From Antedon mediterranea (lineage: Eukaryota > Echinodermata > Crinoidea > Comatulida > Antedonidae): a stretch of DNA of 64,000 nt. Every line of letters starts with the position of its first letter. Within the stretch, counting starts at the first letter, position 1. Below are positions 17,301 to 63,654 of this stretch, in pieces. The DNA lies in the NCBI RefSeq assembly GCF_964355755.1, contig NC_092675.1:25274412-25338411 (forward strand), in the 5' to 3' direction. The notes beneath the pieces are model-generated. The model saw nothing but the letters and a program-made list of their open reading frames with translations, made no database searches and was not told the DNA's origin. The position numbers and the translations under genes are program-made.

Positions 17301-20300
17301 GGTATAGTTTATCATGTCAATTTTATATAATAAAAAACTGATCTTTACTTTTACTGAACTACAATTACACACAAAAAAATATACAATTACAAAATCTTAT
17401 TGTATTTGTTCCACATCTGCAGTTTCTTGATTTAGACTTCTAGACCTAGCCCATACCACAACTTTCATTTGTAGCAACAAATAATCAGTACTTATTTTAT
17501 ACCATTTTTAGTTGAGTTGGAATGGCCAGAAGAGGAAGATGAGATGTTAACTCCAGAGTCAGTGGATCTTATAACAAAATTATTAAATGAAGAAGCCAAG
17601 TTTAGGCTAGGTACTGGCGGCTCACATGAAGTCAAGACACATCCGTTTTTTAATGAACTTGATTGGACTTCACTGCTGAGGCAGAAGGTGGAGTTTATAC
17701 CAGCACTTGAGGGAGAGGATGACACCAGTTACTTTGATTGTACGTTTAATTAAATTTTACCAACTGGATAATGATTATAATACTATGAAATAGTTTTTTG
17801 TTTGGGAACTAATACCATTTTCACATCTGCAAAATGTAGACAATCACAGTACCGCTGTTAAATCTCAGAAGAAAAACACACCAACAAGAGGCCTGTGTTT
17901 TTGTTCTGCGATGTTCCGAGTTCTTACTCTAAAAATGTATTGTTTTTAATTTGACAGCACGTTCCGACCGATACAACCACACAGTTGAGACAGATGATGA
18001 TGATGAAGAATTTCCAGATTATTCACATTTTTCGACTCTTTCACCACGCTTCAGCAAATCCTACAGTAGCCTTTCACAGTCATCGGATGATTCTGAAAAA
18101 CGGGAAAGAGCGAATTCATGCACGGAAACCGATTTGGATACATCATCAGATTTGAAAGAGGATTCCCTGCTTAAGACTGATAGCTCTGGTCCAAATTCTC
18201 CTAGACTGTAAGTAAAGGATTCACGTCATTACTAAAAACCAGGCCCTGTATTTTACTATATTTGGAGAACTGTTATGTTTGCTAAAATCTGTATTTGCAT
18301 TATTTTCTTATGGTTTTTCCTTTCCAGTTGTAGCATGCTACGCAGTTCAAACACTGATTCTTCAACGAGCGAGACAACAGAAAACTCTCCAAGAACGCGG
18401 CGTCGATTGATGCGAAAGCCGAGTCTTAAGGATATGCTACCCAAGCTCTCCATCTCACTGGAGGAGGACATGGTAGAATGGCCTTGTATATCAACACCTA
18501 AAGGAGATGCTAGAAAGTCTCGTTCATCAGTTACAAAGTCTGCATCAATTAACACTCTTTCATTAGTCATTCCTCCAGGTACATATATAGACTATTAAAA
18601 TAATAGTTAATTTTTATAATTCAATTTACCTTATGGAGTGGAGTTTTGCTTTGATGAGTAGTAGCTTTGTGGTTATTAATCCCAGGGTCCTGCCAGTTCA
18701 AATCCTGTCCAATGTCAGATTTCACCAAATTAAGTAAATTTTCCATTTACATAAAAGCAATAATGACAAAGATACTGACTAATTTTAAGCTACCTTTAAT
18801 CATACTATTTATATTTATCATGTTTTTGTTTGCTTTTGATGATTGTTACTATATATTGTGTGCATGTTTTGTCCAGTCTATATCCTGCACAATATTATGT
18901 GTATAGTATATGGCATTTTTCAAACTATAATGTAATATATGAACAGGACATAAGAACCGTAGGTATATTTGATGTGAAAATTTGCTGTGGCTTTATTTCA
19001 TTTTGTCTTTTTATTGTAGAATTTCCCTTTGATGTTTTTATTTCAACCTTGTTGCATGATTGACTTTCCTTGTGGTGTTTTCATTTGTGTGTTTTGTCTT
19101 TTTTTTTTAATTACATAGAAGACCTACAAGTTCCTTCTCCTTTAAATTCACCAATAGAATCAAGTGTTAGTTCCAGAGATGCATCACCTTCCAGAGATTT
19201 TTCACCAGCCATAGGACCGTTGAAGCCACCTATCATCATACAAAAGCGAGGACGGAAGGAACGGTTAGGATTTGAGCTGTCGGCCATCCGAGTCTACCTT
19301 GGTGATACCAATGTGTACACAATACACCACATTGTAAAGGTATGCTTTAAAATGTTATATTTAATTGATGTGATTATTTTTGTTTTTTATTTCAACCATA
19401 TTTAAAGGTGACCCTTCCATTTAAAGTAGGTACAGAAAACTGACTTCAGAGGCCTCTAAAAAAAAACTATTTCCTAAAATACAAATCAAACAACTTTTAC
19501 TGAACATGTAAAAATATACAAAATCGAGAAAAATATTTATTTATAATATACATATACATGAAATATGCAGAAGTGAAATTACCTGCATTACTAAAGTAGA
19601 TTTGATAAAAATTAATTGAAAATAATGTCATTTTCTTACAGCATGTTGATACAGAAAGTGATGTTTACAAAGCAGGATTACAAAAGAATGATCTTGTTAC
19701 ACATATCAACAGTAAACCTGTTCAGGGTCTACTTCATACCGAAGTAATTCAACTTATAGCTGGCACCACCAATCAGCTGAGCATACGTGCTTTACCTATT
19801 GAACACACCACCATCAAAAGTGGTGGTCGAAAAAGAAATCCATCCATTAGTAAAATGGCCAAGAGAAAAAAAAGAAATCGCAGACGAGACATCCGAAGGA
19901 GTTCTATTGTGAGAAGATCAAGTCTGAATCGACGTAGCCTTGTTGAAGGATCTCATGTCCATATGCCTTCACCTTTGACCGGAAGCAAAAGTATTGGTTC
20001 ACTCCATCGAATAGCTGGTGATTATGTAACACGTTCTCCAACATTATTGAAAACGCAGCGTTCTCCGTTCAGTGCACTTACTGATGATCACCGGACATCT
20101 TCTACTAATAGTTCGCCGTGTTCCAGTGGACCAAATTCACCGGCATCATCACACTTTTCTTCGAGGCCAAGCAGTTTATCGGGATTGCTTTCACAAAGAT
20201 CTATTGGGAATCGCGGACATCGTAGGAAATCTGTTGGACATATACCTGTTTCGCCATTAGCAAGGACTCCAAGTCCTTCGCCTATGCCAACATCACCAGT

Positions 20301-20937
20301 GAGGAGTTCAAGTCCACTTGCAATTCATACTCATTCACCTGGAAGTTCTAATTTGACTCAGTCATATCCAATTCAGAACTTATCATTTGCTTCGCCAATG
20401 AAAAAGAAGTTGAATAAAAGAACTCACGATACTCCACCTTCTCCTCTTTTAAGAAGAGCACTCTCTCCAGATAGAGAAAAAATGTCTTTGTCGTCTGAGT
20501 ACCTGGAACCTCATGTGAGAAGCAAGTCTGAATCTGGAACTGATTTTCTGCTTAGAAAGACATCTTCATTTGGAAGGTGTACCAAACCAGATTTTTTACG
20601 AGCTCGCTTTGAAAAAGATTTAGAAAAAGAAAGACGAAAGGCTGAAGCAAAGGAAAAGAAAGAGAAAAAAGAGGAAGCAAAAGTTGAAGAAGAAAAGAAA
20701 GAGGAAAAACCTTCAAAGGCTACTAAAGCTGATAAGAAAGCCAAAAAAGATAAAAGTGATGAAACAAATAAGGAGGAAAAGAAGACAGCTAGATCAGAAC
20801 AAAAGGAAAAGAAAGAGAAAGAAAAGAAAGTTAAAGAGAAAAAAGACAAAGCTGATAAGGACAAGAAAGAGAGTTCAAAGGGAGATAAAAGTGGAAAGAA
20901 AAATGAAGAAGTTGATAGCAGAGTAACCAGTTTGTAA
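1690..20937 (+). CDS. MAST: MAST-family microtubule-associated serine/threonine kinase (5'-partial, 18 exons)
   Basis: AGC-group kinase with a PDZ domain; family members act at the cytoskeleton and synapses. Exons: 1690-1838, 2121-2272, 5606-5717, 8729-8902, 9120-9218, 12388-12511, 13213-13280, 14207-14292, 14767-14941, 15433-15524, 16392-16472, 16668-16738, 17074-17301, 17512-17739, 17958-18207, 18328-18578, 19119-19339, 19642-20937. All phases agree, giving 1284 codons after two leading bases. The N-terminal part holds the MAST signature [20 protein letters not shown] and the DUF1908 helical region. The kinase spans about residues 300-580: ATP lysine K338 (FAMKK), HRDIKPDN (D432), DFG (D450), then [10 protein letters not shown] and DDTSYFD. 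The PDZ domain lies at about 815-905 ([14 protein letters not shown]). A Ser/Pro-rich stretch and a Lys/Glu-rich charged tail follow, and the protein ends in VTSL. It resembles vertebrate MAST1-4, and the paralogue is not assigned. The true start codon is outside the window. Confidence 0.95.
2273..5605. other. MAST intron, 3.3 kb
   Basis: AT-rich intron with no supported exon. It opens with a direct repeat of about 44 bp in two copies (about 2298-2390). ATGCAAAT octamers occur in two copies near 2625 and 2660. A perfect 27-bp palindrome lies at 5265-5319. ORFs at 2444, 3944 and 5008 have no recognisable content. Confidence 0.6.
5265..5319. repeat. Perfect 27-bp inverted repeat with 1-nt spacer
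   Basis: Positions 5265-5291 and 5293-5319 are exact reverse complements, separated by the single base at 5292. The arms begin ATTTAGCTTCAATTACC. It lies inside a MAST intron. It could extrude as a cruciform or be the tip of a foldback element. Confidence 0.85.
5718..8728. other. MAST intron, 3.0 kb
   Basis: No exon is supported. Near 5795-5885 lies a short segment around TACTGGGTAACCTCTTCAG that looks like the 3' tail of a dispersed retroelement. The minus-strand ORFs at 7143-7352 and 7370-7645 have no family features. The remainder is AT-rich intronic sequence. Confidence 0.5.
9408..10655. repeat. Tandem pair of ~0.6-kb repeat units, each starting with a CTAG-ended hairpin
   Basis: Two direct copies, about 9408-9972 and 9973-10655, lie in the MAST intron 9219-12387. 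Each begins with a palindrome with 13-nt arms (CTAGATGGTACGC in copy 1; one mismatch in copy 2) around a TCGCTTCGCTC loop at 9408-9444 and 9973-10009. Both continue with TCGTGCCCACA-like sequence and a shared AT-rich body. Hairpins ending in CTAG resemble Helitron 3' ends, but no transposase is present. The copies differ by indels and substitutions, so the duplication is not recent. Confidence 0.75.
10665..11951. repeat. Second tandem pair of ~0.63-kb direct repeats
   Basis: Positions of about 10665-11293 and 11312-11951 are two diverged copies of one unit. Shared landmarks include AAATGGCNATCAAAAGTGG near the start, an AACCGGTTTTCAGC segment and a closing AAATTTATATATAGATTAT. The pair directly follows the 9408-10655 pair in the same MAST intron. 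No coding capacity is seen. It is probably part of a composite non-autonomous element. Confidence 0.75.
12100..12215. repeat. Dispersed repeat fragment (GGACAC family)
   Basis: The sequence alternates GGGACA/GGACAC and TCCTATTAA blocks. Related blocks recur near 14395-14560, 27545-27640 and 61295-61370. No terminal structure is resolved. Confidence 0.4.
14352..14386. repeat. (CTA)n microsatellite
   Basis: An uninterrupted run of ACT/CTA trinucleotides, in the MAST intron between the exons at 14207 and 14767. Confidence 0.9.
18660..18722 (+). repeat. tRNA-like sequence, probable SINE head
   Basis: Contains an A-box-like TTTGTGGTTATTAAT segment and a B-box-like GTTCAAATCC segment at tRNA spacing. 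It does not fold into a clean cloverleaf with paired acceptor arms by eye, so it is called a tRNA-derived repeat, not a tRNA gene. It lies in a MAST intron. Confidence 0.45.
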
Positions 20938-31601: not shown

Positions 31602-34600
31602 TCATTTCAATGGTGGAAGTCCAAGAGATGCACGTAATGCATTAGCTTCTGCAATCTCATCAGATTCATTCTTTTTCTCTCGTTTGCTTTCATGTTTATG
31701 ATCTCTCTCGTGTCTACTCCTTTTAGTCTTGTGTGATTTCCGCCTGTGAAAGATATCATTTATTTTTTCACATCAATTTTGATTATAAAACTAACAAGAA
31801 CTATTTTGGCGCCCCCTGACACTCCCCAAAAGGAAACAGCAATGAAGCTTTTTTACAAAATCGTAAGATAAAAAAACAAATTTTGGACATTGAAGCAATG
31901 ACATGTTTGAGGACCATTAACAGAAGGGTTGTAAATGAGACAGTATTTTATTTTGTGTAACTTACCTATCATCATCATCTGTATGTCTATGGCTTCTATG
32001 CTTATCAGTGTGCTCTCTATCTCTATGACGCCGTTCTTTAAGGAAGAAATGAAAATAATATTTAGTAATATAATGGGTTAATTTGTCTGTTGGCATTTAC
32101 TTTAATGCTGGAAAAATGAAATTTGATTGGGTGAATGAACTCCAGCCAAGAATTTGTATCCCTTTAGAGTTATGAAGCTTGGCTACCACTCCAAGGGTCC
32201 AGTCAGGACTTTTTCTAATGACAAAATTACAACTCCACTCCCAAAGACTGTAATAAGACTTGTGTATATGTTTGTCTTGTGAACCTCTGAGGGTCCCTAA
32301 TGATCAGCAATTGCTGGATTGATCACCCTCATTAAATATGGTCAAAAAAGAGTATTATTAATAAGGGTAAATATATAAAAATTACAATTACCAATAGGAG
32401 TTAAATAAAGTTTACCTGGTGATCTTGACCGCCGCCTTTCTCTTGATCGACTTCTCCTTCTCCTATGAGGTGAATCTCGCCTCCGCCTACTGAAGAAAAA
32501 TAAAATTTTAAAAAACTTAGCTAAGCTTCAGAGTGAAGCTCATGAGAAAGATATACAAGTGTGTCAAAATAAGTGCGTACTGAACTTTTCTTAAACTTGA
32601 CTTACTGTAATATACATTAAAAATATTTACCTTCTATAAGGTGATCTTGATCTACTTCTTCGATACCTTGGTGATGGACTTCGTCGTGAACGATCACGAT
32701 CCCTATATCGATCTGGTGAACGACCTCTACTATCCTATGTTTTAAAAAAAGTATCATTTTAATTAAATATTATTCATAGCAAACTACTACACTTTTTTTA
32801 ACAGGTTTATTTACCTATATAAATAATATAATAAACCTAAATTGTTTTTGTTGAAATTTCTCTATAATTTATGCGAATAACTTTACTGTTACCTTAATAA
32901 TTTCTTCCTCCTCATCACTTGAACTTTCCATGACCTCTAAGTCTTCTTCCAATGCACTAACCTGAATAAAATGAGGTTTATTAAAAGCAAATTAACAAAT
33001 AATATAAAAATTACAGCTATAATATTTTGTTTCAATATCAATCAAAAAAGAAAACAAATCCTAAAATCATACTCTGAGTTCTAACTTTTCAGCTTCTTCC
33101 AGTATATAGCGCTTCTGAATTCTTGGTAAAATAATACTACACACACGTTCTTCATGAAGCAGTTGGTCAATGAACTCATCAATATGTGTTAACTCGTATC
33201 CTCCATTGTTGTTCTGAAATCGAATCTTTCTGTAATCATTGTACAGTGGTTCCAGGTACTTGTATATTTCAACACTCTCTCCTATAAGTCGCAGGTACAT
33301 AGCACCTAAACAACGTACATACCTAAAAAAATAATAATTTGGTGAGACATGTTTCTGCAGTAACAAGTTTTACTGTTTTGAACTTAATCACAAGAAAAGG
33401 ATCTCAAATATTGTTCTGGTTTTGGATTTAATAACTCAATCAACTATACTAAACAAACAAAATATTGTACAGTACATGTGTAGAATCTGTACTACAGTAC
33501 ATGTGTAGAATCTGTACTACAGTACATGTGTAGAATCTGTACTACAGTACATGTGTAGAATCTGTACTACAGTACATGTGTAGAATCTGTACTACAGTAC
33601 ATGTGTAGAATCTGTACTACAGTACATGTGTAGAATCTGTACTACAGTACATGTTTATATCAATAAATATAAAAATTAATAATTGCAAAATTTTTAATAT
33701 TTAAACAGCTTTTATTTATTACTGTAAAAAGAAAAATCAGCCACTGAAAGTGTTTTTGAAATTAAGATTATATGTACAGTAATTAAAGAACTATAATTAT
33801 AATCGGAAAATCGGCTACTTACTTAAAATCATCATTCTTTATGAATTCAATAACAATGTCCTTTTCTGGTTGGATCTGTAACATTTTAAGTATGAGACAA
33901 AGAAAAGGAGACGGTTTCACGTTTCCACCAAAAACTCCTCCAATGTAACGCAATTCCATGGCTTTGTCAACGAGAAGTTCAGCTAGAAAAATAGTGATGA
34001 TATTTTAGGATACATACTATTACTAGTAACTAGCTAGGTCTCTACTACTGTAATTGTATTACTATACTTGCTTGATACTTGCTTGATGTTATATGGGTCG
34101 TTTAATATGATAATTTTATAGTCACAATCAGTAATAAAAAAAACAAGCTAAGAAGCTTACTAACTAGATTAGATTAGTAGGCCTAGCACCAAGAGCCCCA
34201 GCAAACAGGGCTGTCAACTAGACTAAAACTAATCCCGGTCGAAGTCTATACCTTGGCTGCCCTTATCATGACATATGGGGAACAACGGCAGGGTCCCGGC
34301 TTGCTTCGGATTACGGTCGAATCGGCCGCCAACTAAAGCGGCCGCTAGTTCAATAACGGTAATCTGTATGGAACGCCGTGTGCGCTTTGATTGTCGTTGT
34401 TTTGTAATCTTTGATTGTCATTGTTTCGACAGGTTTTCTTTACCTCGGACGTAAATAACAATCTACATTATTATGTAATTTATTCACGAAATGGCGAATC
34501 GATGATTACTTATTTTAACTGTTCTAAATGATATACATATGTTTAATAAAGTCTATAAAATACATTGTGGTGTTTATATTGTATATTAATATAATATAAT

Positions 34601-44485: not shown

Positions 44486-47400
44486 ATGATGCATTGGCCA
44501 AATATTTTATCATTTTCAGCAATCTTCGTTTATATATTTCTTAGTAATACCGGTGGTAAGTTACTTTGTTTTCTTCGAGATTTTCTGCAATAATATTCTA
44601 CTTTATGAATATGAAACCTATAATTATTTAATGAATTTCTTTATGTGGGCTTATCTAACTTATTCACTACGGTAAGTTATTATTAGGTTATATGCATGAT
44701 ATGCATATAACCTCTTGATTCTGTCAAAATCTTTATTTATTTATTTATTTATTTATTTATTCTTTCCTTAGCACTATTTTGTCCGTGCATTATCTTGGCA
44801 TCAGTTTCATCTAGCTAAGTCAAGTTTTCAGAGTATATTCCTTATGGCCAGGAATCGATGTGGTTATATTTTCACGATGCGTAATCAAAAATTACGCGGT
44901 CTACGCGCGATTTTACGAAATCACGTTTGTAATCATATCTTCACAAGCATGAATCACAATTAAACAAAATTTGGTACTCATAAATTTCAGGTCATATTTC
45001 ATCATATGGCAATTAAATTACGTGCGTAGCGCATATAACGCTTGCGTACGCGCGCTTAAAATGTTCAAAATTGTCAAAATTTATTTTCGATGAAATTAGA
45101 GTACGTTTCAGGCAATTTTAAGCGTTTAAAAAATTGCCATGAGTGCGCCGATTTTTGCACGCGCACTGCGCGTTAAACGTTAATGCGCACTCTTTTTGCC
45201 CGATTTCTGTTTTACAATCTTTCTTTAATAATATCATCATATTTGATTCAGGTTTCAACTCGAAATTGCGTTATACGAGCACGTCAAAAGTGACTGGCTA
45301 CGCACGTATAAGTTAACAAAATGGTGAAAATATGCTAAATTTTAAAATTAATATATATCGTCAGAATGCAGGGGAACACCTATTTTTTATTTCATTTTCT
45401 TGAATTGTATGTATCATATGTATGATTTATTATCAAATTAAGAGAACAAAAGTTGATTAAGTCATCATTAATTGCATATTAAATTAAAAAAACATAATTT
45501 CGACAATCAAACAAATTATGACATTTTCTTAGGCCAAAATAACAAACTTAACATTAACTTTCTTCCTTCAAAAATTCATATATTAAAGTTAAAAGTATGT
45601 AGTTTGACAGTGCATCATTTGTATACATTTTAAAGATGTCATCATAGTAAAAAATTATAATTCATTTCGGTATGTAATAATCTATTTGCATCAAAGTGGT
45701 TACTACATAGTAAATACACGGAGAAATTTTTCTACAACTTTTAGTCAGTTGTGTACGGCTCGGTGGTCTGTGCTCGTGTCTATGGCATTCAAGGTACCGA
45801 GATCGAGTCTCACCTTGGGAAACGAAATAAGATTTTTTTTTTTATTATCCGTATTGTTTGTTCAAATTTATTTCTTAGTGTATAGATTATACACATGATT
45901 TATAATGAAATCTAGATAAAAATTAACTTATGTCTTTATTATTATGTAACAACAAATGTGGTTTATGACATTATACGCATATGGATCTTTGATCGGATTG
46001 TGATACCGGCTATGGTGTTCGCGTTAGCAAGGTCCTATCATATATTATAAATAATTAAAGATTCTGAGAAAATCAATCAATCAATATATCTTTTAAAAAT
46101 CAATTATCTTTATTTAAATCAATGCATATAACCTATAATTCGTCATAGTGACGAATTAAATCTAGTTTATATTATTTCCTTCTTATTTTTCTGTTTTGTA
46201 TGTTTTTTTAATGAAATGGGTTAGGTAGAATAGGTAGTGTTTTAACGCATGTGTATAAATAAAACTTTGGTAGAAGAAGTAATTATTACAAAACAATTAT
46301 GAAATAGGTCAAAATTGTCTTCCATGACCTTTTTAGTAACCTATAAGCGGATGCTATTAGTAAATGTGTAATCTCATTTGTTGTAATAAGTACAAGTTTA
46401 AGTCGTTTCTTGTGGTTAATCTCTACCACTGTGCTTTTAATTACTCCGCAATTAAAATGCAAGTGATCACTCCAAGTAGCAGTCAAATATGGCAATCTTT
46501 ATTATCACACCTGATATGAGTGTGTCAAATGTATAGTAGGTATTTCTAAAATTTATATATTAATCCAAGGCAAAATACTGAAAAATGACAATATTGTGGG
46601 TATCAGTGGCTGGATCTCAATAAAGATTAAAAAAAAGGCGAAAAGCTAAATCAAAACGATAAATTAGCAGAGCTTTCGGGCAGCCCTTCATCAGTTTAGG
46701 CCTAAGTTAATAACTAGAAAGTAATGGATTGTCTCAAATTTTTCTTTTCTCATGCCTACAATATGTTGCTATTTATCCTAGGATTTATTTAATGTAGGCC
46801 TATACATTAGTAAAATTCTTGCTTTCTATAGGCCTAAATCATGTGAGATACCACCTTTCAGTATTTCGATCTGTTAAGATCAAATGATTGACGGTGGTTC
46901 ATTTGTTTTCAATATTATATTACATACGGAAATTAAATTCCAGATATAGTATTAACAATTGTGATCCTTTTTCTTTGTGCTGTGAAATGAATAGATAGGT
47001 CCGGTCTATATTTCATACACAATATGCCTAATATTGTATGCTATTTTAAAGCCTGATTGTCATATCTGCTGTGTCCTAATTGGAATAATAAACAGATTTA
47101 GCTGACTTATTTTACGTTAATAAATATCTTTTGTTACATTTTTCGGAGATCTTTTTTATTAATAGCAACACAGGCATTCAATATTTTGATTTGTCTAAAC
47201 TTTTTTACTGCTTAATACTATTTTAATTTTAAATAAAAACATTTTAAAACGCGTTTTCAGTGTATACACATAATTAAAATGTTTCGATCTATTGAAAGAA
47301 GACATTTTAGCTGCTTGAATTTTGAACCCTTTTTGATAATTGTTTTTTTTATACTTGAACAAAATCTAGTGACCGCGGATTACCCGGGGCTTACACAAAA

Positions 47401-50400
47401 TCTAAGTAATGAATTCATGAGAGGGAATATCAATCAGGATAATTAAGGTTATGATATTTGTCATGGCATTGCAAAAAAACATTAACATTTCAAAGTCCAA
47501 AAATGATATTACATCTCATCATTTTACATATACCCCAATTTATATAATTATTCTATTTAGCTTTACATTATCGTATAAAATAATATATTAAATTTTTCAT
47601 TAATTACCGCCGCCAAGGAGGTTATATTTTCACCCCTGTATGTTTGTGTGTTTGTGTTTTTGTGTGTGTGTGTGTGTGTGTGTCTGTGAACAGCCTGGAG
47701 GCCACAGTTTTTATCCGATTCTCACCAAATTTGGCAACAATGATCTATGTCCCAAAAGCTCGGACGAGTTCGAATTTGAGGGGAAAAGGTCATAGGTCAA
47801 GGTCACAACTAACAAAAAACTATTTTATTGCCTAGAGACCACAGTTTTTATCCGATTCTCACCAAACTTAGCCACAATGGTCAATGGCACATTTTTTGAA
47901 GGGTCAGGGTAAAATATCAAGGTCCACAAAAAGCTACTACACTAAAAGGACTTGAACCAGCGACCTCAACTGTGAGAGGCTGGATACATAACCATTACAC
48001 CAAACTGTCATCCACAACTTTGTAGTGTGCAGTTAACATATTTACACTTAGAACGAATAAAAAAAAATGTAAAAAAGAAATATTCAGGGGGAATTTTATG
48101 TAGGGCAATTTTACAGTAGGCGGAGGTTTGTACTCTCGGAGTACCATCTAGTTTCGTATGTATTTCTTTTCTCAATCTGGAGGTTTAATATGTCGTGGTC
48201 AATTGCAGTAGTATTCAAATAAGTTACATTTGTAATAATTTTCGTTACAGGAGTAGTTTGTACAGATATCATTACAGATCCATCGGTAATTCATTGCACT
48301 ACAAACCCATGCTTAAATGATGGTACCTGTTTCATTGTATACCGTAAGTATTGAAACAGTTTTAATTTAAGAAACCCAAAACAAATACGATATCAATACC
48401 AAATACGAAATGTTAAGTTCTATGAAACTAATACAAAAATGACAGTGTGCATGGCGTTTTCAACACGTTTTAAAGTTATTTGTTTGAAGACATTGATGAC
48501 GTCAATTTATCATGTTATGAGGCTAATGTGGTAAAGTTGATGATGACGTTATCGATGAGGTCATACTGGTAGTGGATAGCATCGATAGGCATGGTTCTGT
48601 ACTTATTAAACCTCGTAATAAAATTAAAAATAATACATTGATGATTATGCTAATTGTATTAATGGGGTTTTTTCAGGAGCCGGTACAAATGAGAACTCTG
48701 AGATAGAGTGTGCAGGTGATATATGTTTAAAGTTTATATTTGAGCCGCGTACGTGGCTAGAGGCAGCTGCCGATTGTGTTGCAAAAGGTGGTATGTTAGT
48801 CAGTCGTGAGTCTCTTCAGAATCCAAATCTACTGGTTAAATCAGCTATGAATGGAGAATTATATTGTAAGTTAAATAAACACTGGTCTGTTGTTTCAAAA
48901 TTAGTTTCTTTTATTAAAATAAGGAAAATACAAATGATACCCCTATAGCACTGTCTTTTGTTTTGTATTTTTTCATTATCCGCTGTCTCATGTTGAAAGC
49001 TTCGCAATCTATTTATCACACATTTTATCTTCAAGTTTAGTACAGTATAATTTTTATATTCTTATAATACTATTTGAAGATAAGTGTATTTTTTGTTTTT
49101 GTTATAGACAACTGTGATAAATTATTTTGGACAAGTGGGTATAGAGATTCCAACAATGATTGGACGTGGGTCTCTACAAATGTTACTGATTCGATATTGA
49201 ATCTCCAAGACAACAACTGCATACATACTGGTTCTCATCCTGAAACCTGTGACGATCTTCAACTGACAGCGGAAAATTGTTCACAAAAGTTGAATTATAT
49301 TTGTGAAATACCTACTAGTATGATACTGGAAGGTAAGACCAAAGAATGTGTGTAGGCCTACGTAAATAATATGTCACATCACAGAGCAAACATTTTAAAA
49401 TAATATTGCTCTAACGTAAATACAACTATTTTTGTTTTGTCTCCTGGTATCTAGTTGAAAATTTCTGCATTTTGTGTTCAAAGAATGTAGTTTGAAATCC
49501 AAAGAAGAACAAAGAATCTTTAATTTCACGGCACTGTTTGTGATTCAGCCTAGGCCTACTTCAAATAATCTAGTAGCTCGGATTTTCAATGATGTTAGAT
49601 AGTTACTATCCTTTTTCTTTTTCAGAGTTGACATATCAGTGTCTTTGTGATAGTGACCACTACGGGGTTGATTGTAATTTAACATACCACAGTTATGGTA
49701 AGTAGGCTTAATATTGACGCTTTGGCTATTTCATGTGCTGTGGATGATATCATTATCATCATCATCATCGTCGTCATCATCATTATAATCATCATAAAAA
49801 CAGACTAACTGGAGTAATAGTGGTGAAGAAAATGTTTCTTACATTATAATAATAGTACAGTATACATTTACCATCAATTCTTCTTCTTTTTTTTAAGATC
49901 TGAAAGAGAATGGTGCTTGTGAAAGTGAAACAATAGAACTAGAATGTCCATCAAATACGATAATCTCTGTGGAAAATGCCCTGTATGGAAAAAATACAGT
50001 TACACATATGAACTACCAATGTCCAAACAGGATTGAAGATGTCGTAGCAGAATCTTGTAAAGGTTCTGGAAATGCATCTTTTCTTGTTACTGAATTATGC
50101 CATGGAAGAAACAACTGTTCATTTACAGTTAATGAAGAGACGCTTGGCGTCGTGTCTTGCTTTAGCGGTCTTGTTGAAAATAAAGACTTTTACTTGGAAG
50201 TATTTTACTCCTGTAGGCCTGGAGGTGAGCATATTGGTCGTTTTATGCATCATGTACCAAACTACCAATGTGTGTATTCAATCATAAATGTAAATTGTTA
50301 ATTTGTTTGTTAAAGATTCGTTAGAAATGCAATATGGAACATCTGTGAAATGTGGATATGACGATGACCCAGAATATCCAGTGTTTATATCGTGCCAAGG

Positions 50401-53400
50401 CAGAGATATCGAGATAGAGTATGCATACTTTGGTCACATGGCTAAGCGTCAGCGATGTTTTAATACAGAGAATAATTCGTTCCGCGATGACTACAAAGCC
50501 GACTGCTCTTCCATGTATTTTCTAGAATATTTAACAAACAGGTAAGAAACATTACTAAGATACTAAGATAATTTAAGATTATCTATAGTACCCGGTTCAA
50601 GTATTAAATAAAGGCTCACTTCTCTCGTGAAAAAATAATTATGTCTCCATGCTTCTATCTTTATAATAATAATATCTATAGTCTCATCTAAATTTCCAGA
50701 GGCGTATATATTTATCATAACAATGTCTAAAGTTCTTGGGAAAAATAAATTAACCTTAATATGTATGTGTGTCATTATAATGATACAAAACAAAATGCTG
50801 TAACTCTAACAATATACCACATTTCAAATGACAGATGTAACGGTAAAAGTGTGTGTATGTTTGTCAAGGATCACAAGTTATTACGATACCGATGTGATCA
50901 ACCGCCTGACATCACAAAGAATGATTTACGTGTTTTCACGGATGTTCGCTACAAGTGCCGTACAAATGTATCTAAAGGTGAGCCATTCAGGTTTTATTGT
51001 GGTTTATGACTTCATGTATTCTATTAGTAGCTAGTATAAAGGTTTATTTTCCATGAGTATAACTTGGCTAAAATTTCACATTGAGTCTGAGATTAAATTA
51101 CTAATTAGTTAATTAAGTCAGCAAATATTTAAAAACATGTTTCTTGCCATATTTTATATGAAAGTAAAGTTTTAAGTCTTCAAAATGTATAATTTCTAAT
51201 TCCACCACATTTGGTATATAATTACACCACTGACACCATATCATTTTTTATATTATACGGTAGCCTATCATTTTTAGTGCGTATTTTTTTATTAATTTAA
51301 TATATAGTAGAATTTAAAGAATTGACAACTCCGTCGATTAGCAAATGTCAACAGACATATAAAGAAGGTATAAACTGGACTATGACAGATCCTGGAGCAA
51401 TTAGCAATCAAAATTGCCCGGATGATCCATCTGGTAAGAAATAAATTGTAATTTATGTTAAAGAGATGAGAAAATATGTTAAAAACTACTTGTTGTCAGG
51501 GTAATAATAAGTAATCAACTTTACGATTAGGCTCAGCAACGTGGATGTGTTCCAGTGACGGAGTATGGCATGAAGATGGACCAAACTTGGACGATTGTGG
51601 TGAACAAGAATGGATTGACGAAAACAGAAACTTAGTAAGTTCGTATGTGGCTTATACACACAATCCTCGTAGTGTATAATATAACCATTGTAGGCCTAAA
51701 GTAATATCAGGTTGTTTAGTACCTGAATCTGTTCCAGGCATGTGTTTCAAAATTTGTTACAGGTTTTACGCAAAGTAGTAGAAATTAATCGATTAGATTC
51801 TCAAGTCAATCGGTTTGTAATTACCGCATTTTAACTTCAGATAGAAGATGCTGATTTACCTGCCGTAGAAATTGCTATTAAAATTTACGAAGGATTTGAT
51901 TCGACAGAAGACGTAAGTGTCGAAACAGTCACTGAGACAGTGCAATTATTAGACGAACTCATTAGCTTACAAGAGCAACAGCTGACTTCTACTAATGCTT
52001 CACAAGAAGAAAAGGTGCACATTGCTGTTGAATTTCAAACGGTATGTAGACATGTATTTTGCTTGTAGTTTCAGATGACTACAACACTCTATCCAGATTT
52101 TTCAGGTATCATAAAAATATTTGGTATTATATAACACCTATATAAATTCCTGTCATTTGATTGGACGAATGTGGGTCACATGGCGTGCAATAGTACGCAC
52201 TATTCAACGATCGTTAAATAGTACTTTTTGAAACATTTTTGTGTACGAAAAAAAAACGTCTAGATGTTATATAAAACAAATAATGAATGTTTTGTATTCG
52301 TGTAATGGTACAAATAATGGCACTTGGTGAATGATGAAAGGTTATATCAACTCGGCTTTGCCTCGTTGATATAACCTTTCATCATTCACCTCGTGCCATT
52401 ATTTGTACCATTGCACTCATAAACATTCATTATTTGTATAATAAAACATCACATGTGTTTCACATGTATCTCCTTGTATCATATTTATACCATAACATAA
52501 GCTTACATAATACAGGCACCGCAGTAAAAATAAGATGTTGTATGCAGTAGGCCTATTACCAAATTTTCCTAGGATTACTGGAAAATATTTTAGTATGTGG
52601 AGATATATCACTTAGTATCGGATATGTACTTTTTGTTATTCCCTAAAAAGATCAAATATTTATTGATTGATTTTGCAGGAATTATTGCATACCGCTAGTC
52701 AGCTACTCACAGAGGACATATTACATGTGTTCGAAGACGAAGAGGTATGTTGTGACAATATCAACCAAGTAATAGCTGTATGTTTTACAATTCTGTGTTT
52801 AGTGCTATAGACATTATTATGCACGTGATTAAAACAAATAATGTGTTTCGTTTTATTTAAAAGGAAAATGAAGCAGCAACAACTGCAACATCTATTTCTG
52901 ATGAGATTGAAAAGAGTGCGTTTCTTGTAGCCGATACACTGTCATCCGAGTCGCGAGAAATTGAATCGGAAAATATTGGTGAATTTATATATATATATAT
53001 TTGTTTTTTTAATTAAATTTATTAAAGAAGATCACGTACTAGGATATGCTATATTTTGCTTAAAACAGAGTTAAAAGTACTGATACTCATCTGATTCAAG
53101 ACATTTTGGCGTCCAATTTTGTTCATATATCGATCTCTTTCTTTGTATAAATGTTTTTCTTCTTAACCATATTTTGATGTAATGCTCTAATCTGGTAATT
53201 TAATTCCAAACTAGTATTTTCTCTTATAGTTGCCACCATTTGCATTTGTCTTTCTTCGTTTTATCGTTTGCACTGTTTTTGTAAATTTTAGTTATGAAAG
53301 TTAGAGCTGTAGATGTAATTGATGATGTACCTACCGAAGATGCTGAAGATGAAGATGATCATTACGTTTTATCAATTGGTGATGATGACACTGGATGTTC

Positions 53401-56400
53401 CTATCTAAAATTGCCCCGTCTTACAGAACGACAAACTACAATCTTTATTGCAACTACTACTGGTAAGAAACACAATTTATTATTGAACAGAAAATGCACG
53501 GTTTTTGGAATCTTCGTGACCTAAAGTATGTTTTTAAACATACATGCCTTTTTCTTGGGTTTAGGCCCTATTATATATCCGGAAATCACGTTGTGTTTTC
53601 TTGAAGTAGAAAAGCTATTCAGTTATTTCAAAAGAGATAATTGGGGCCTAACAGTTATTCATGTATTGCTTTTAGAACTTGAAAAACCAGAATTTGTGAC
53701 GGCGACTGAATCCAGTATTTTTGACCACACTGGTGAGAATGTTTTTGCTTTTAAATCAACTTTGTATTCTTATCTGACCTCAAGCTACATGCTATAGAAT
53801 TTATTTTTATATATTAAATATTAGGTATTCATAATACAGAAATTTATCAAATATTAAACGTAGGCCTATATTTCATCTACAAAATGTATAAAGTGCATAA
53901 TATAAAACGAAATATAGAACTACTAAATTACAATTTAATCTATTATTTTTTCTTCTTCAGAATATTATCCTGATTCATATTCATCAAGCAAAGGTGATGA
54001 ATTTTCCATGTGTTTAAAAATTTAATATTGCTGCATCGCAATACACAAACAATTCATGCGCGTAGAAATAAAAATTAACATGTCAAAATCGAATACAAAT
54101 TATAAAAACTAATCAATGAATATGACTTTAAAAGTGCGATTTCTTTTAAACAAATCTAAAGATCATACATTCGTTATAGATTGATAGCTGTTTTAATACT
54201 TATTTAGGTAAATTAAAGATGATGTATGCAAAATACAAGACTCTCGGGAGATTTCTGGAATCTAGTATCAACTCGAAAATAGATGGGTATGTTTCAGTTT
54301 TCAAGATTAAATTCGTTTTTAAAGGTTATAATTTAAAAATAATGTACATATTGAATATCAGTTTTTTTCGTAATCTTTAAATAGTGTTACTGATATCACT
54401 GAAACTGAAGTTTATAACAAAACAGCAGAAACATCTGCAGCACACATGAACCAGACGACAACCATACTCAACTCAAATGTCATCGGAGCTTCGTTAAGAT
54501 TTGATGAACACGATATTACGGAATTTGAAAATGGACAAACTGTACAGTTTTGTCTTCCAGAGCTAAATGTAAGAAATTTCAAAGGCAACATTTAAATAAT
54601 GCAAAACAACTCAAAGTTCTGTTGCCTTTTGTATCTTAATTGAAAACAACTCGGTGACCAGTATACGCAAGCAAGTAATGCATCTTTTTAAATTCATTTT
54701 GATATATAGAATATAGGTTAATTAATAAACATTGTTCTCAACATTACAGACTTCTTTAGTTGGTGAACAAAAATGTGTCTTCTGGAGCTTTAATAAAACG
54801 TAAGCCTTGTTGTTGTGTACTTGTTTTCTGATAATAGTTATCGGTATAAACTATATATTTGTTGGGTAATTTTGCCTATCTGTATTTTTTTCTGATGGTT
54901 TTAATTTATAATATTTCACTATTATAAGGACAAACACAGGTGAATGGTTAAGTGAAGGATGTATCACTACTCAGACGCGACAACACACAATCTGTACTTG
55001 TAATCACATGACAAACTTTGCTATATTGATGGACGTACATGGCGTAAAAGTGAGTTAGTAATGGTTCAAATTAGAAATATTAATATTAATGTTATTATAA
55101 TATTAAGCTAAATAAAATGAGGTTAGAAAGTACTCTTTTTCACCCCCACGTCTATTTTGCTCTTTAAAGAATCTTTAATCAATACTTTGATCGTCCTCAG
55201 GAACTGGGAATAAAAGTGAAATTGTGTGAGACCAGAAAAGTTCACAGTGGAAGGAATTGAAACTAGCAAACCTTCAAGCAATATAATAATGATCCTAATA
55301 AATTACAAATGTACTAATTATTTGTTTCTATCAGATCGAACCAGTTCACGAGTCTACTCTGCGATATATCACAATTGTAGGATGTTCTGTATCAATTGTA
55401 GCATTGTTAGCCTGTGTCTTCACATTCTCAATACTAAAGTAAGAAACAAAACGTTATGCTACCCTACGTATTTTGTTTCTTTAAATATCAATTTTAATTA
55501 TTACTGCCGAAGACTTTATATTAGGCATTCCGTTTATTTGTTTTTTACATGGGACTTGATAGATGGGATAAAATTGGCATTTTATTAATTAATTCGAAAA
55601 CCATATTGATATTAGTGTTGTTTTATTAGGAGATTAAAAAGTCTACGCACCACAATCCATCGTAATCTCTGCATATCCCTTGCGATATCTCAGTTAATCT
55701 TCATTGTGGGCATCGAGAGAACTTCAAATAAGGTTAGATTCAAAGCTTAAGCAGTCTTAAAAACAGTCAGAAATAAGTACATTGTTTTTTTAAATAGGCC
55801 TAGCACATCAAATGCGATAATTTCAAAGCAACAAAATAAAAAAAGAAGAAAATCATGTTTTCTTCACAGTATTTGATACATCCATGAATCATGTCATTAT
55901 TATCTAAATAAATATTTATGAAAAAAAAAATAAACTTAGATCACGTGGTATTCTGACATTTTACAGCTGATAATATAAATAATATATTGTTTTTGCTGTC
56001 ATTGTTTTCATGTAGACTATTAGCATTTAATTCCTCCCGCTACAACTTTTGGCTTTCATGCCATGAGTTTTTAATTTTTTAAATGTTTTCTTTTTACAAA
56101 ATAGTTTACACAATCGGACCGCAGTATATATTATAACTAATTAATCTTTAACAAAATGTAAAAACGTGTGAAACTATTCGAACTGTGCATTTTGTAATCC
56201 TCAGGTGGTGTGCTCTGTGATTGCTGGAATGTTACATTATTTTTTTCTGGTCTCATTTATGTGGATGTGTCTTGAGGGAATTCATTTGTACATAACACTT
56301 GTAAGAGTGTTTAACACAACAGAGCATGGCGCTCTCCATTACTATCTAGCAGCTTATGGTAGGCATTTGGTGGGAAGGGGGGGGGGCTGGGGGTATTTAG

Positions 56401-59155
56401 GTCAAACATTACAAATAATATGCCACTGACCTGACCTGACCTGACCTGACCTGACCTATTTTGATTATGTTTGAGTTAATTGAGTATAATCGCTACAAGT
56501 GCCTACTTAACACAGCTTGAGCTTTATTGAGAAATATTTGAAGTACCGGTAGTGTTAAAATATTTCTGCTTATAAATTTAAGCTTTTTGGGGATTAAAAT
56601 TAGATATTTATGCATATCAACTTTAATAGATCTCTTCACAATTTTGCAACAGACTGCATAGTAATGGCATGTTTCTGATTACGTTGTTTGGAGAATAACA
56701 TACATATCCTAGTTTATAAAAATATTTTGTGGCAGTCAATGTCATTTCTATTTCTTTGTTTACCTTTTTAATGCATAACATATAGTCTAGTAGGAAGGAG
56801 GGGTTCATATATTAATTTGTATACAATCTTTATTCTTGTACAGCACTGCCGTTATTGGTAGTCGCGGCTCTAGCGGGTGCAGTACCAGAAGGGTACGGAA
56901 CTGATAAATTGTGAGTACTCCTTTAACTATAATACTATAATTATGATTTAAAATTAAAAAGATCGCTGAGATGATGTGTGACGAGAAAGAACGTGACAAT
57001 AATAGTAATAATGTTGTTTTTTCGTATACATTACAGTTGTTGGTTGTCGACAGAAAATAACTTTATTTTTGCCTTTGTTGCTCCTGTTGCAGGTATTATT
57101 CTGGTAAGCTAGATTTTATCTCATTATTACAAAATATATGCACACTTACATTTTATTTTAAATCTAAACGCTAAAAGTAAAAATTATGTTTGGGAAACGC
57201 CCTCTATATAAACAATCATTTTTGTGCCAAGCTTATCTGGATATATCTGTTTTAATAAATCGTATAAATCATGATTCTTTTTCATTTTTCTAGTTGAATT
57301 TCATCATACTCATTGTATCATTAAGGAAAGCTTATGCAAGCAGCAACGCAATGAATCAAGATGCCACAAAAACACAACAACTAAGGTACATCAGTTATGT
57401 AACTGTGAATGTAAACCCACTCATTCACTTGTTGTACTCTGGAGATAAATATTATACTATTCACTACGAAAATACTTCGTTTACGTTCCCGAGATATGCC
57501 TACACATGCTATTTTGATAGATTTAATATACATTTATACAAACGTATTGCTTGGCGATGAATGGAACATTTTTATAATATAATATGTATAATTATTTGTT
57601 TTAACACAAATAGGTACATGTATGGGTCCTTGGGGTATAGACTTAAAACCCTTGACAATAAATATATAAACCATTTTTGTCGCAATTTGAAGCGCAAATT
57701 TCTTGTATGCCTAATTTGATGGTCACGATATAATGTGTTATTTTTTTTTAACAGAACGTGGATAAAAGGTGCAATTACATTGTTGTTTTTATTGGGATCA
57801 ACATGGGCCACTGGACTTCTGTTTTTCAATCAGTCATCAATTACTATGGCGTACATCTTCACTGTTCTTAATTCTTTACAGGTAATTGAATAAAATATAT
57901 GAAGGAATAATGTTTTATAACCTGTGAAGCATTGTGTGATTTTTTATTTGTTTATATATTTTATCTTGAGACTCAATCACGGACGTACTGTGCTGTAATA
58001 TATCTTTACATTATTATACAGTCCTGGTATGGGAATTCTCCTACATTATTCGTTCGTACAAAATTGCTAGACAGGGAACGTATAATCCAAATATGCTAAA
58101 TACTGTATTTTTATAGGGATTTTATTGTTTTAATGCTAGACAGCGGGAATAATCCAATATGCTAAATACTATTTGTTTATAGGGATTTTTCATTTTCCTG
58201 TTTTACTGTTTCAATAATGATGCTATTAAAAAAGAATTAAGAAGGTGGCTGTCAAGAAAAGCATGGGTACCAAAGAGAATCCGAGAACATTTGAAAGATA
58301 AGCCAAAATTAACCACGATGAATTCAATAATGGTAAATAATATTGTGATGGTAATAATAAGACATCATCCAAATTCAATATCATTGTTATGGTGCGGGTG
58401 AGTTAGTGTAATGACGATGATATGATTTTATAATTCTCATGGCGATAGATGAGAATATTAAGGATGATGATGATGGTGATGATGATGACGATGATGATGA
58501 CGATGGTGATGACGATGATGATGATGATGATCGACGATAATGATAAGTATGATGGTTGTGAATTTATAATCACAATACCGCAAACCTTTACTAGTTCAAT
58601 TTAAGCAATATTATAACGATACTGATTATTTAGATGATGATAATGATTATAATTAGTATTGATAATGGTTTTAATGGTTTAATATTGGATTTGAAGACGA
58701 TGATAAGAAGGATGTTGATGATTTTGAATAGACCCGATTGACTTTAGTATAAGAAATTAATTATAGTTATTTTTTTTGTTAAATTTAGACAACACACACC
58801 AACCAATTGCCTGCAGCAAACAAAATAGGTAACTATATTAATCATTTATTATAAAAATGATATAACCATGACGTCACAACAATTGTACCGAGACATCATA
58901 ATCGTAAATAACATCCAGAATGACTAGCATTCAATCTTTGAACGTGTTACTTTTTACGGCGTCCAGAATTGTGTAATTATGTTATTAACAAATATAAAAC
59001 GGGTTTTTTAATGAATAATGTTTGACTAATTTTCAGAAACCATGCCTACTATTTCATGTGGATATTCAAAAGACTATACAATTTCTAGTCTTCTGACGCC
59101 AGCTACTATCAGTATGGTCGACTTTACTATGGCATCGTACTCTAAAAAAAACTAG
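44486..59155 (+). CDS. Adhesion G-protein-coupled receptor with EGF, C-type lectin, two SUEL lectin, HRM and GAIN domains (30 exons, 1261 aa)
   Basis: Exons: 44486-44555, 48251-48343, 48677-48865, 49108-49332, 49626-49697, 49898-50224, 50316-50541, 50835-50977, 51308-51433, 51531-51634, 51841-52041, 52679-52744, 52864-52978, 53292-53462, 53565-53732, 53961-53993, 54208-54286, 54385-54568, 54750-54799, 54929-55049, 55335-55438, 55630-55732, 56205-56358, 56844-56910, 57037-57103, 57294-57385, 57755-57881, 58183-58332, 58789-58828, 59037-59155. The sum is 3786 nt, with all phases consistent. Order: signal peptide (1-23), first EGF half, C-type lectin domain (55-193), second EGF half, two eight-cysteine SUEL domains (217-448), HRM (449-525), GAIN, GPS (CVFWSF to [13 protein letters not shown], cleavage expected between M908 and T909), seven membrane helices from about 925, short cytoplasmic tail. 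It resembles latrophilins (SUEL+HRM+GAIN) but has no olfactomedin domain. Exons 53565-53732 and 53961-53993 are the least certain. The ligand is unknown; the lectin modules suggest glycan binding. Confidence 0.9.
44686..46133. repeat. Possible mobile element bounded by GGTTATATGCAT / ATGCATATAACC
   Basis: A perfect hairpin, GGTTATATGCAT-GAT-ATGCATATAACC, lies at 44686-44712, and ATGCATATAACC recurs at 46122-46133. The interior (44870-45310) is unusually rich in CpG and in ACGCG/GCGCG-type palindromes, quite unlike the flanks. A tRNA-like segment lies at 45745-45826. Whether this is one element or several is inference. Confidence 0.45.
45745..45826 (+). repeat. tRNA-like sequence, probable SINE head
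   Basis: An A-box-like CGGCTCGGTGGTCTGTGC and a B-box-like GAGATCGAGTCTC lie at tRNA spacing. The acceptor stem is not clean. It sits in intron 1 of the adhesion GPCR. Confidence 0.4.
46655..46705 (-). ncRNA. Hammerhead-ribozyme-like motif, retroelement remnant
   Basis: The minus strand reads CTGATGAAGGGCTGCCCGAAA, which has the order of the hammerhead core: CUGAUGA, a short GGG/CCC hairpin (stem II), then GAAA. It is followed by GCTCTGC. Hammerheads of this minimal form are known in Penelope-like retroelements. Stems I and III are not verified, and self-cleavage is not implied. Confidence 0.4.
47605..48152. mobile_element. Helitron-like non-autonomous element with 3' hairpin and CTAG end
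   Basis: It begins near GCCAAGGAGGTTATATTTTC and carries a (GT)n tract at 47644-47684. It then repeats CACAGTTTTTATCCGATTCT twice (about 47705 and 47842). It ends GGCGGAGGTTTGTACTC-TCG-GAGTACCATCTAG then T. The hairpin at 48130-48144 followed by CTAG-T matches the layout of Helitron 3' ends. Similar ends are widespread in marine invertebrates (from memory). A tRNA-like segment is embedded near 47935-48020. Confidence 0.55.
47935..48020 (-). repeat. tRNA-derived segment
   Basis: The minus strand has an A-box (TTTGGTGTAATGGTTATG) and a B-box (GGTTCAAGTCC) at tRNA spacing, in the order of a tRNA gene. Weak pairing of the ends suggests a SINE or pseudogene copy. Confidence 0.55.
52276..52441. 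repeat. Near-perfect long palindrome (~75-bp arms)
   Basis: The left arm (52276-52350) and right arm (52366-52441) mirror each other, with landmarks ACAAATAATGAATG, GGTACAAATAATGGCAC, GGTGAATGATGAAAGG and TTATATCAA. A loop of about 14 nt includes CGGCTTTGCCTCG. It is related to the outer arms of the foldback at 30628-31350. It lies in an adhesion GPCR intron. Confidence 0.85.
56426..56458. repeat. (TGACC)n microsatellite
   Basis: Six pentanucleotide copies near the 5' end of the intron after the exon 56205-56358. A G-rich run (GGGGGGGGGCTGGGGG) lies just upstream, at about 56376-56392. Confidence 0.9.
58066..58205 (+). repeat. Tandem duplication of a 3' splice-site region (~69 bp)
   Basis: GCTAGACAG...AATCC...ATATGCTAAATACT...TTTATAGGGATTTT occurs twice, with acceptors at 58115-58116 and 58181-58182. 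The downstream acceptor is the one that keeps the reading frame of the TM7/C-tail exon. Confidence 0.85.
58464..58545. repeat. (GAT)n-type imperfect microsatellite
   Basis: A long run of GATGAT with GGT and GAC variants, in the intron following exon 58183-58332. A shorter complementary (CAT)n run lies near 49755-49790. Confidence 0.9.
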
Positions 59156-62687: not shown

Positions 62688-63654
62688 ATGGCCAGGACAC
62701 TTTGCCTCATCCTTATCGGAATGCTCGCTCTTAGTGTGATTCTTCCAGTAAGTAGAACGATTTCTTTTTTCTTTAATATTTATTTTTCTTCTTTTTGTTA
62801 TTCATTATTATGTATTCATGATTGTAAGCAATTGTTTGGATTATCCATTTTTGTTGCAATTGAAGAAACTTTGCAGGCGATATTAAAGAAAACCGTAGTA
62901 ATAAATACATTGAAAGACAGACCAATCTAGAGTTCGTAATGTAATCATGTCAAACAGGGATAGTACGGTTCTACCGCATGATTCAAACAAATGTAATTTA
63001 GTGGTTAGATCTTCAGTGAGAAATGTTTAACATAAAACCAAGAGCAGACTTCACAAAATGTTTCATTTTGTTCACAATTACCAGTGTATTAATTCACTAC
63101 TTTCTTTTACTAAACAGAATGAACAGATGACAGCATCTGCACAAGGTAGGCCCAAATTTATAATACTTTAGAGCGTGGTCCGTGTATAATATCATGGAGG
63201 TGGTAGACATGACCTAGTGTTGACATTATTTATTCTGTCTTTATACTGAATGACACTTTCAGTGCTAAAGCATTGATTTCCAAAGTGGTTCAGTACAGAA
63301 ACGTTAACAATATAATAAAAATAATTCAAAGACAACTAACAAAGTAATTTACATTAGTACACACACATTTACAAAAAGGTAAAAAATGCTTAACATTAAA
63401 TCAAATGAATTTGTCGTTTTGTAGAGTGTGTTAGCGGAATTAATTAAATATCTACATCGACAAAATAAAATGTAAACAAAATATATATTTTCAAACAGAC
63501 ATGACATAACGATTAATTTCAATGTTCACTTTCAGATTGTACAGATACGGGCGCTCCGCCTTACTGTGCAGCTTTATCAAATATGGGCCTGTGCAACACA
63601 GAAACTTTCAGTGACGGTGCTTTAACTTGTATGGCAACCTGCGGCTTCTGTTAA
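62688..63654 (+). CDS. Small secreted cysteine-rich peptide with one ShK (ShKT) domain, three exons
   Basis: Exons 62688-62747, 63118-63145 and 63536-63654 give about 68 residues. Exon 1 (20 codons) is a typical signal peptide: Met-Ala-Arg, a Leu/Ile-rich core, and an end near the exon border. Exon 2 is a short linker. Exon 3 holds six cysteines in ShK order, ending in a Cys-Xaa-Xaa-Cys pair directly before the stop. ShK domains occur in venom peptides, secreted metalloproteases and immune or mucosal peptides; the classical channel-blocking Lys-Tyr pair is not apparent. A strong donor (GTAAGT at 63656) follows the stop by one base, so the 3' UTR is probably spliced. AATAAA signals are at 63786 and 63810. 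The function is not known; a toxin role is not shown by sequence. Confidence 0.85.

Follow-up and report, generated by a model that had tools for sequence, protein, structure and literature searches.

In the 64,000-nucleotide stretch of DNA from the crinoid Antedon mediterranea analysed here (the window, placed on contig C6 of the genome), a gene for a latrophilin-type adhesion G protein-coupled receptor (GPCR) extends from position 44486 to 59155 of the + strand. According to our spliced model it consists of 30 exons. When the protein encoded by this model was used as a query, a single entry among 2957 candidates was retrieved, being 100% identical over the aligned part. The entry, NCBI protein P0001 (1223 aa, 'adhesion G protein-coupled receptor L1-like [Antedon mediterranea]'), comprises one sequence. 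The model has one additional residue at the donor of exon 1 and lacks three residues at the acceptor of exon 7, the rest being identical. As predicted from its sequence, the gene product is a latrophilin-type adhesion GPCR with a signal peptide, an EGF domain that holds a C-type lectin domain (CTLD), a SUEL domain, an HRM domain, GAIN/GPS and a seven-transmembrane (7TM) domain.

Exon 1 (44486-44552) contains the start codon and the signal peptide and ends in phase 1. Its end was inferred from P0001, while the donor of the model is located three bases later, at 44555. Cysteines 1-3 of the EGF domain (its first half) are encoded by exon 2 (48251-48343, 93 nt) and cysteines 4-6 (its second half) by exon 5 (49626-49697, 72 nt), both exons being assigned by the match of the joined halves to Pfam EGF. 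Exon 3 (48677-48865, 189 nt) and exon 4 (49108-49332, 225 nt, with YICEIP near its end) code for the first and second part of the CTLD, as assigned by Pfam Lectin_C. Exons 2-5 are each bounded by an AG acceptor and a GTAAG donor. They are phase 1-1, as is exon 6 (49898-50224), coding for the SUEL (rhamnose-binding lectin, RBL) domain (Pfam SUEL_Lectin). An earlier note on this DNA had proposed the four exons with the same positions, order and phases, and the spliced model agrees; P0001 carries all four in genomic order, both lectin exons included. Exons 7-16 (50316-53993, with the start of exon 7 taken from P0001 and placed at 50325 by the model) code for a second SUEL-like stretch, HRM and the first part of GAIN, and exons 17-20 (54208-55049) for the remainder of GAIN including the GPS motif (Pfam). 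The 7TM domain (Pfam 7tm_2) and the beginning of the tail are encoded by exons 21-28 (55335-58332), and the cytoplasmic tail up to the stop codon by exons 29-30 (58789-59155), according to the spliced model and P0001.

Upon comparison of the full protein to Pfam, matches to SUEL, HRM, GAIN, GPS, 7tm_2 and Lectin_C were obtained, and no EGF domain was reported at E-values up to 1. The receptor part is clearly of the secretin/adhesion family (7tm_2, 226.9 bits, cut-off 20.6) and is preceded by a GAIN domain (55.4 bits, cut-off 26.5) with its GPS motif (57.4 bits, cut-off 22.5). SUEL/RBL (45.6 bits, cut-off 31.4) and HRM (32.9 bits, cut-off 26.2) are also above the respective cut-offs.

The three N-terminal and the three C-terminal cysteines of one EGF domain are found on either side of the CTLD, and the six-cysteine spacing that is characteristic for EGF domains is only obtained when the exons 48251-48343 and 49626-49697 are joined. 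Against Pfam EGF (PF00008, cut-off 21.5), the joined halves reach 27.0 bits, whereas the native, unjoined segment stays below the cut-off with 14.8 bits. Joining the first half to its native neighbour, exon 3, gives 17.5 bits, and joining it to exon 4 or to exon 6 gives 7.4 and 14.9 bits, respectively, all below 21.5. The two lectin exons score 35.0 bits against Lectin_C by themselves and 28.5 bits within the whole protein (cut-off 22.6), and the inserted domain also qualifies as a CTLD by its fold. The claim of the earlier note that a CTLD is nested in a single EGF domain is thus borne out: at the level of the encoded sequence, a complete CTLD separates Cys3 from Cys4 of the same EGF domain.

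Related proteins were collected by a search with the GAIN-to-7TM region because searches with the N-terminal region (883 candidates) and with the whole protein returned only the Antedon protein itself. The 7993 candidates sharing most words with the query were scored, and 119 proteins were obtained at E-values up to 1e-5, the six nearest being named latrophilin-like or ADGRL-like. In a motif scan, 4 of the 119 proteins had both EGF halves with a CTLD-sized insert. These are the Antedon protein and those from Asterias (P0002), Acanthaster (P0004) and Lytechinus (P0005), all of which share the order EGF half, CTLD, EGF half and SUEL. Between Cys3 and Cys4 there are 147 residues in Antedon, 160 in Asterias, 158 in Acanthaster and 138 in Lytechinus, and the number of cysteines in the CTLD is 8, 6, 6 and 4, respectively. 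With join points set from the alignment to Antedon, the joined halves score 42.1 (Asterias), 44.1 (Acanthaster) and 29.4 bits (Lytechinus) against Pfam EGF. If they are left unjoined, the profile matches two separate stretches with sums of 27.9, 30.1 and 20.4 bits; in each of the three orthologues, the best-scoring stretch corresponds to positions 1-16 of the 32 in the profile. No EGF domain is listed for them in the Pfam column of the database. Echinoderm adhesion GPCRs had been named in the earlier note as the place to look for the same nesting, and two separate complete EGF domains as what might be found there instead; it is the split that was found. That three further echinoderm proteins are arranged in this way speaks against chance and, as the starfish and sea-urchin versions have the same split, it gives the impression of an ancient, built-in design and not of an error in annotation.

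Within the Antedon genome, a search with the whole nest resulted in 17 matches. Four of these are the exons of this gene and the best of the others has an E-value of 0.02, so that a second strong copy of the nest was not detected. Matches to CTLD exons are abundant in the genome (at least 154). The 27 genome positions with a SUEL domain were inspected together with about 1.5 kb of flanking sequence at each end. The motif for the second EGF half was found beside SUEL only at this gene, the motif being strict and blind across introns so that cases may be missed. One further motif match among these positions (L044, on the opposite strand) was judged by eye not to be an EGF domain. Nine of the SUEL exons of the genome are clustered on one strand at C2:24013583-24053594 and apparently represent a tandem family.

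A second latrophilin gene is located about 22 kb past the gene on the - strand (C6:25355913-25381017, L065-L068), where pieces of SUEL, HRM, GAIN, GPS and 7TM were detected by tblastn. For this paralogue, no EGF half was found by motif on its strand (60 kb) and no tblastn match to the CTLD was obtained.

Phylogenetic trees were computed from the 7TM region. In a tree of 30 of the 119 proteins, seven echinoderm proteins form one group (support 95/97) in which the crinoid branches first; in addition to the four with complete nests, it contains one protein from Patiria (P0003) and two from Diadema (P0006, P0007). This group holds (92/89) in a second tree of 23 rows, comprising 22 of those proteins and the spliced paralogue, which is placed outside. 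Other echinoderm receptors in the 30-row tree (from Apostichopus and a G6-like protein from Diadema) also fall outside the nested group. These include the sea cucumber CTLD receptors P0066 and P0067 from Apostichopus, which have no EGF half. Based on the grouping of the seven orthologues, the nest most likely predates the split between crinoids, starfish and sea urchins. The insertion of exons at a phase-1 intron that splits the EGF domain, as envisaged in the earlier note, is consistent with the exon structure, but the event would be old, as the seven orthologues group together and the paralogue shows no sign of it.

In EGF domains, disulphide bonds are formed between cysteines 1-3, 2-4 and 5-6, and the termini of a CTLD lie side by side. 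Only the 2-4 bond would have to span the CTLD and, with the ends of the latter being adjacent, the EGF domain could close beneath the lectin. We propose that the EGF domain folds as a single unit, with the bonds C1-C3 and C5-C6 formed within the halves and C2-C4 spanning the insert. The CTLD would be looped out between Cys3 and Cys4, as is L4 in the LE domains of laminin, and would hang from the main hairpin of the EGF domain as a doubly tethered side domain adjoining SUEL. In all four complete echinoderm proteins, each EGF half has three cysteines (an odd number on both sides) and the EGF spacing is kept in both halves. Structure prediction had been recommended in the earlier note. An alignment-based model has a predicted local distance difference test score (pLDDT) of 82 and shows confident strands around Cys3 and Cys4. 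Its alignment has 20 rows, in which mollusc and nematode ends were trimmed, Toxocara P0094 was omitted and 12 of the 16 ADGRL-like CTLD receptors described below were included; it replaced a first alignment of 21 rows, where EGF cysteines had been matched with the first CTLD cysteines of mollusc and nematode sequences. Both the 3+3 cysteine parity and this model agree with a single-unit EGF fold.

Several points weigh against this interpretation. Folding from the single sequence failed (pLDDT 34). The alignment behind the model covers the first EGF half in only 5 of 20 rows and the second in 7. An extra N-terminal cysteine of the Antedon protein (residue 26 of P0001) may or may not leave with the signal peptide. 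The nest is complete in only 4 of the 7 orthologue models, Antedon included: P0003 from Patiria and P0006 from Diadema retain the second half, and Diadema P0007, which retains the first half and the start of the CTLD, passes from there directly into SUEL-like sequence. Finally, all orthologue sequences are database models. On balance, judging from cysteine spacing, the structure model and the analogy to laminin, we consider it very likely that this latrophilin-type receptor of Antedon has an EGF domain, folded as a single unit, with an inserted CTLD.

It had been suggested in the earlier note that the lectin exons form a cassette, being skipped in some transcripts so that an EGF-only receptor exists beside the nested form. 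Skipping both lectin exons indeed leaves a normal EGF domain, as the joined frame is open and the joined halves reach the score reported above. However, since all the exons in 48251-50224 are phase 1-1, the frame survives skipping of any of them, which is thus unspecific and weak evidence for an isoform. Furthermore, the sole database entry, with its one member sequence, has both lectin exons, the splice sites involved match the consensus well, and no SUEL protein with an intact EGF domain was found among the 119 relatives by a strict motif scan and in the Pfam column. We therefore regard an EGF-only isoform as unlikely, and both lectin exons are probably constitutive. The two halves might also not pair at all, representing two small separate cysteine motifs which flank an ordinary CTLD. 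This would fit with the score of the unjoined Antedon segment, which is below the EGF cut-off, and with nematode proteins that have a second half without a visible first one (see below). Yet three cysteines per half would leave an odd one on each side, the EGF spacing is kept in both halves of the four complete echinoderm orthologues, joined scores range from 27 to 44 bits and the model has confident strands around Cys3 and Cys4, so that we see little chance for unpaired halves.

That the split is an annotation artefact, with missed exons completing each half so that two whole EGF domains surround the CTLD, might be suspected as the orthologues are database models. The introns flanking the lectin pair (333 and 293 bp) were scanned for open phase 1-1 stretches of at least 42 nt between AG and GT. 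There are 4 and 0 of these, respectively, and none is cysteine-bearing. A missed exon of this size that completes either half, which the earlier note had considered as an objection, was thus not found, and this possibility was rejected; with proteins from three other genera showing the same split, an artefact is extremely improbable. The same applies to the idea that a CTLD exon pair was duplicated and inserted recently, within crinoids only. The many CTLD exons in the Antedon genome would be a ready source, but none of them is close to the inserted one, as the best non-self match has an E-value of 0.02, and an insertion restricted to crinoids is contradicted by the starfish and sea-urchin orthologues having the same nest. 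There is hardly any chance that this is what happened.

The common picture of EGF domains is that of beads on a string. Selectins, lecticans and thrombomodulin combine CTLD and EGF domains in one ectodomain, where these occur in succession and none is known to lie inside the other. A closer parallel to the EGF with its inserted CTLD is provided by laminin, where a standard LE domain has L4 inserted between its third and fourth cysteines (PMC5338690), and where L4b is placed in LE14 with the disulphide pattern undisturbed (PMC6744579). In both systems, an EGF-like host accommodates a guest domain between Cys3 and Cys4. However, in laminin the host is an eight-cysteine LE domain and the guest is the L4 beta-sandwich, whereas in Antedon the host is a six-cysteine EGF domain and the guest a CTLD, within a GPCR. 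By analogy, the Antedon nest would work like laminin LE/L4 and is no member of that class. The receptor shares SUEL, HRM, GAIN/GPS and 7TM with latrophilin/LAT-type adhesion GPCRs (ADGRL, Cirl, LAT-1/LAT-2) but additionally has the EGF/CTLD nest before SUEL, and none was traced at the neighbouring Antedon paralogue. In the literature searched, which was accessible in part and covers subscription journals thinly, the nest is not described. We regard the insertion as one of a known kind with a new combination of host (EGF) and guest (CTLD), while the latrophilin-type receptor is ordinary in other respects. The Cys3-Cys4 loop, known as an insertion site from laminins, apparently has a second, separate use here, in a signalling receptor and with a lectin as guest. 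The outer tip of echinoderm latrophilins would accordingly be a single composite module that is overlooked by whole-protein domain scans.

The triplets EPN, QPD, EPD, QPN and WND, which are characteristic for calcium-dependent sugar binding, are absent from the inserts of all four complete echinoderm proteins. Binding of a protein rather than calcium-dependent binding of a sugar is thus expected, and the CTLD probably has a protein ligand, this being a weaker inference. Located at the outer tip of the receptor, the CTLD would bind its ligand while the EGF base would hold it rigid, and a pull on the ligand might reach the GAIN domain and the tethered agonist. As leaving out two exons removes the CTLD in frame, a direct route to its function is available.

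Latrophilins with a CTLD also occur beyond echinoderms. ADGRL-like CTLD receptors from molluscs and others resemble the Antedon receptor in having a CTLD on a latrophilin-like 7TM protein. They differ from it in that no EGF half was found by motif in the first 260 residues and no SUEL is listed by Pfam for any of the 16 checked, 10 of which have an EPN or EPD triplet. Two nematode latrophilins (P0064, P0094) show the order CTLD, second EGF half and SUEL, and a first half was not visible. The odd cysteine count of these proteins hints at an unannotated first EGF half upstream, and their N-termini may be poorly predicted, an impression gained from the start of P0064. In both, the lone second half has three cysteines and a further CTLD-like stretch follows after SUEL. 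A latrophilin-like protein of nematodes that has two CTLDs together with a GPS is mentioned in PMC9085898. In the available part of PMC6422961, EGF is listed among the extra domains of invertebrate latrophilins, including a sequence from Acanthaster, and no CTLD nest is mentioned there.

As a tentative and rather doubtful possibility, LAT-2-type latrophilins might have inherited the EGF-nested CTLD at their tip as a module from the bilaterian ancestor, with loss or degradation of this module in molluscs, arthropods and vertebrates. As a rigid head for the ligand, tethered at both ends, it would relay force to GAIN, and the nematode LAT-2-like proteins (CTLD, second EGF half, SUEL) would be its living remnants. 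If the nest were bilaterian, this would bear on the function of invertebrate LAT-2 receptors; in 2019, C. elegans lat-2 was not yet functionally characterised, according to PMC6422961.

Three other features were noted in the window. A 442-codon open frame on the + strand (19609-20937) has a PDZ domain at its start (24.1 bits, cut-off 23.2) and continues as a Ser/Lys-rich tail of low complexity; it resembles the tail of a MAST-type kinase. On the - strand, 33067-33369 is an exon of a gene for a splicing factor of the PRP38 family (104 bits). A gene for a small secreted cysteine-rich peptide, with three exons as judged by eye, is located on the + strand (62688-63654) and has a ShK-like domain with 20.3 bits, just below the cut-off of 20.9.
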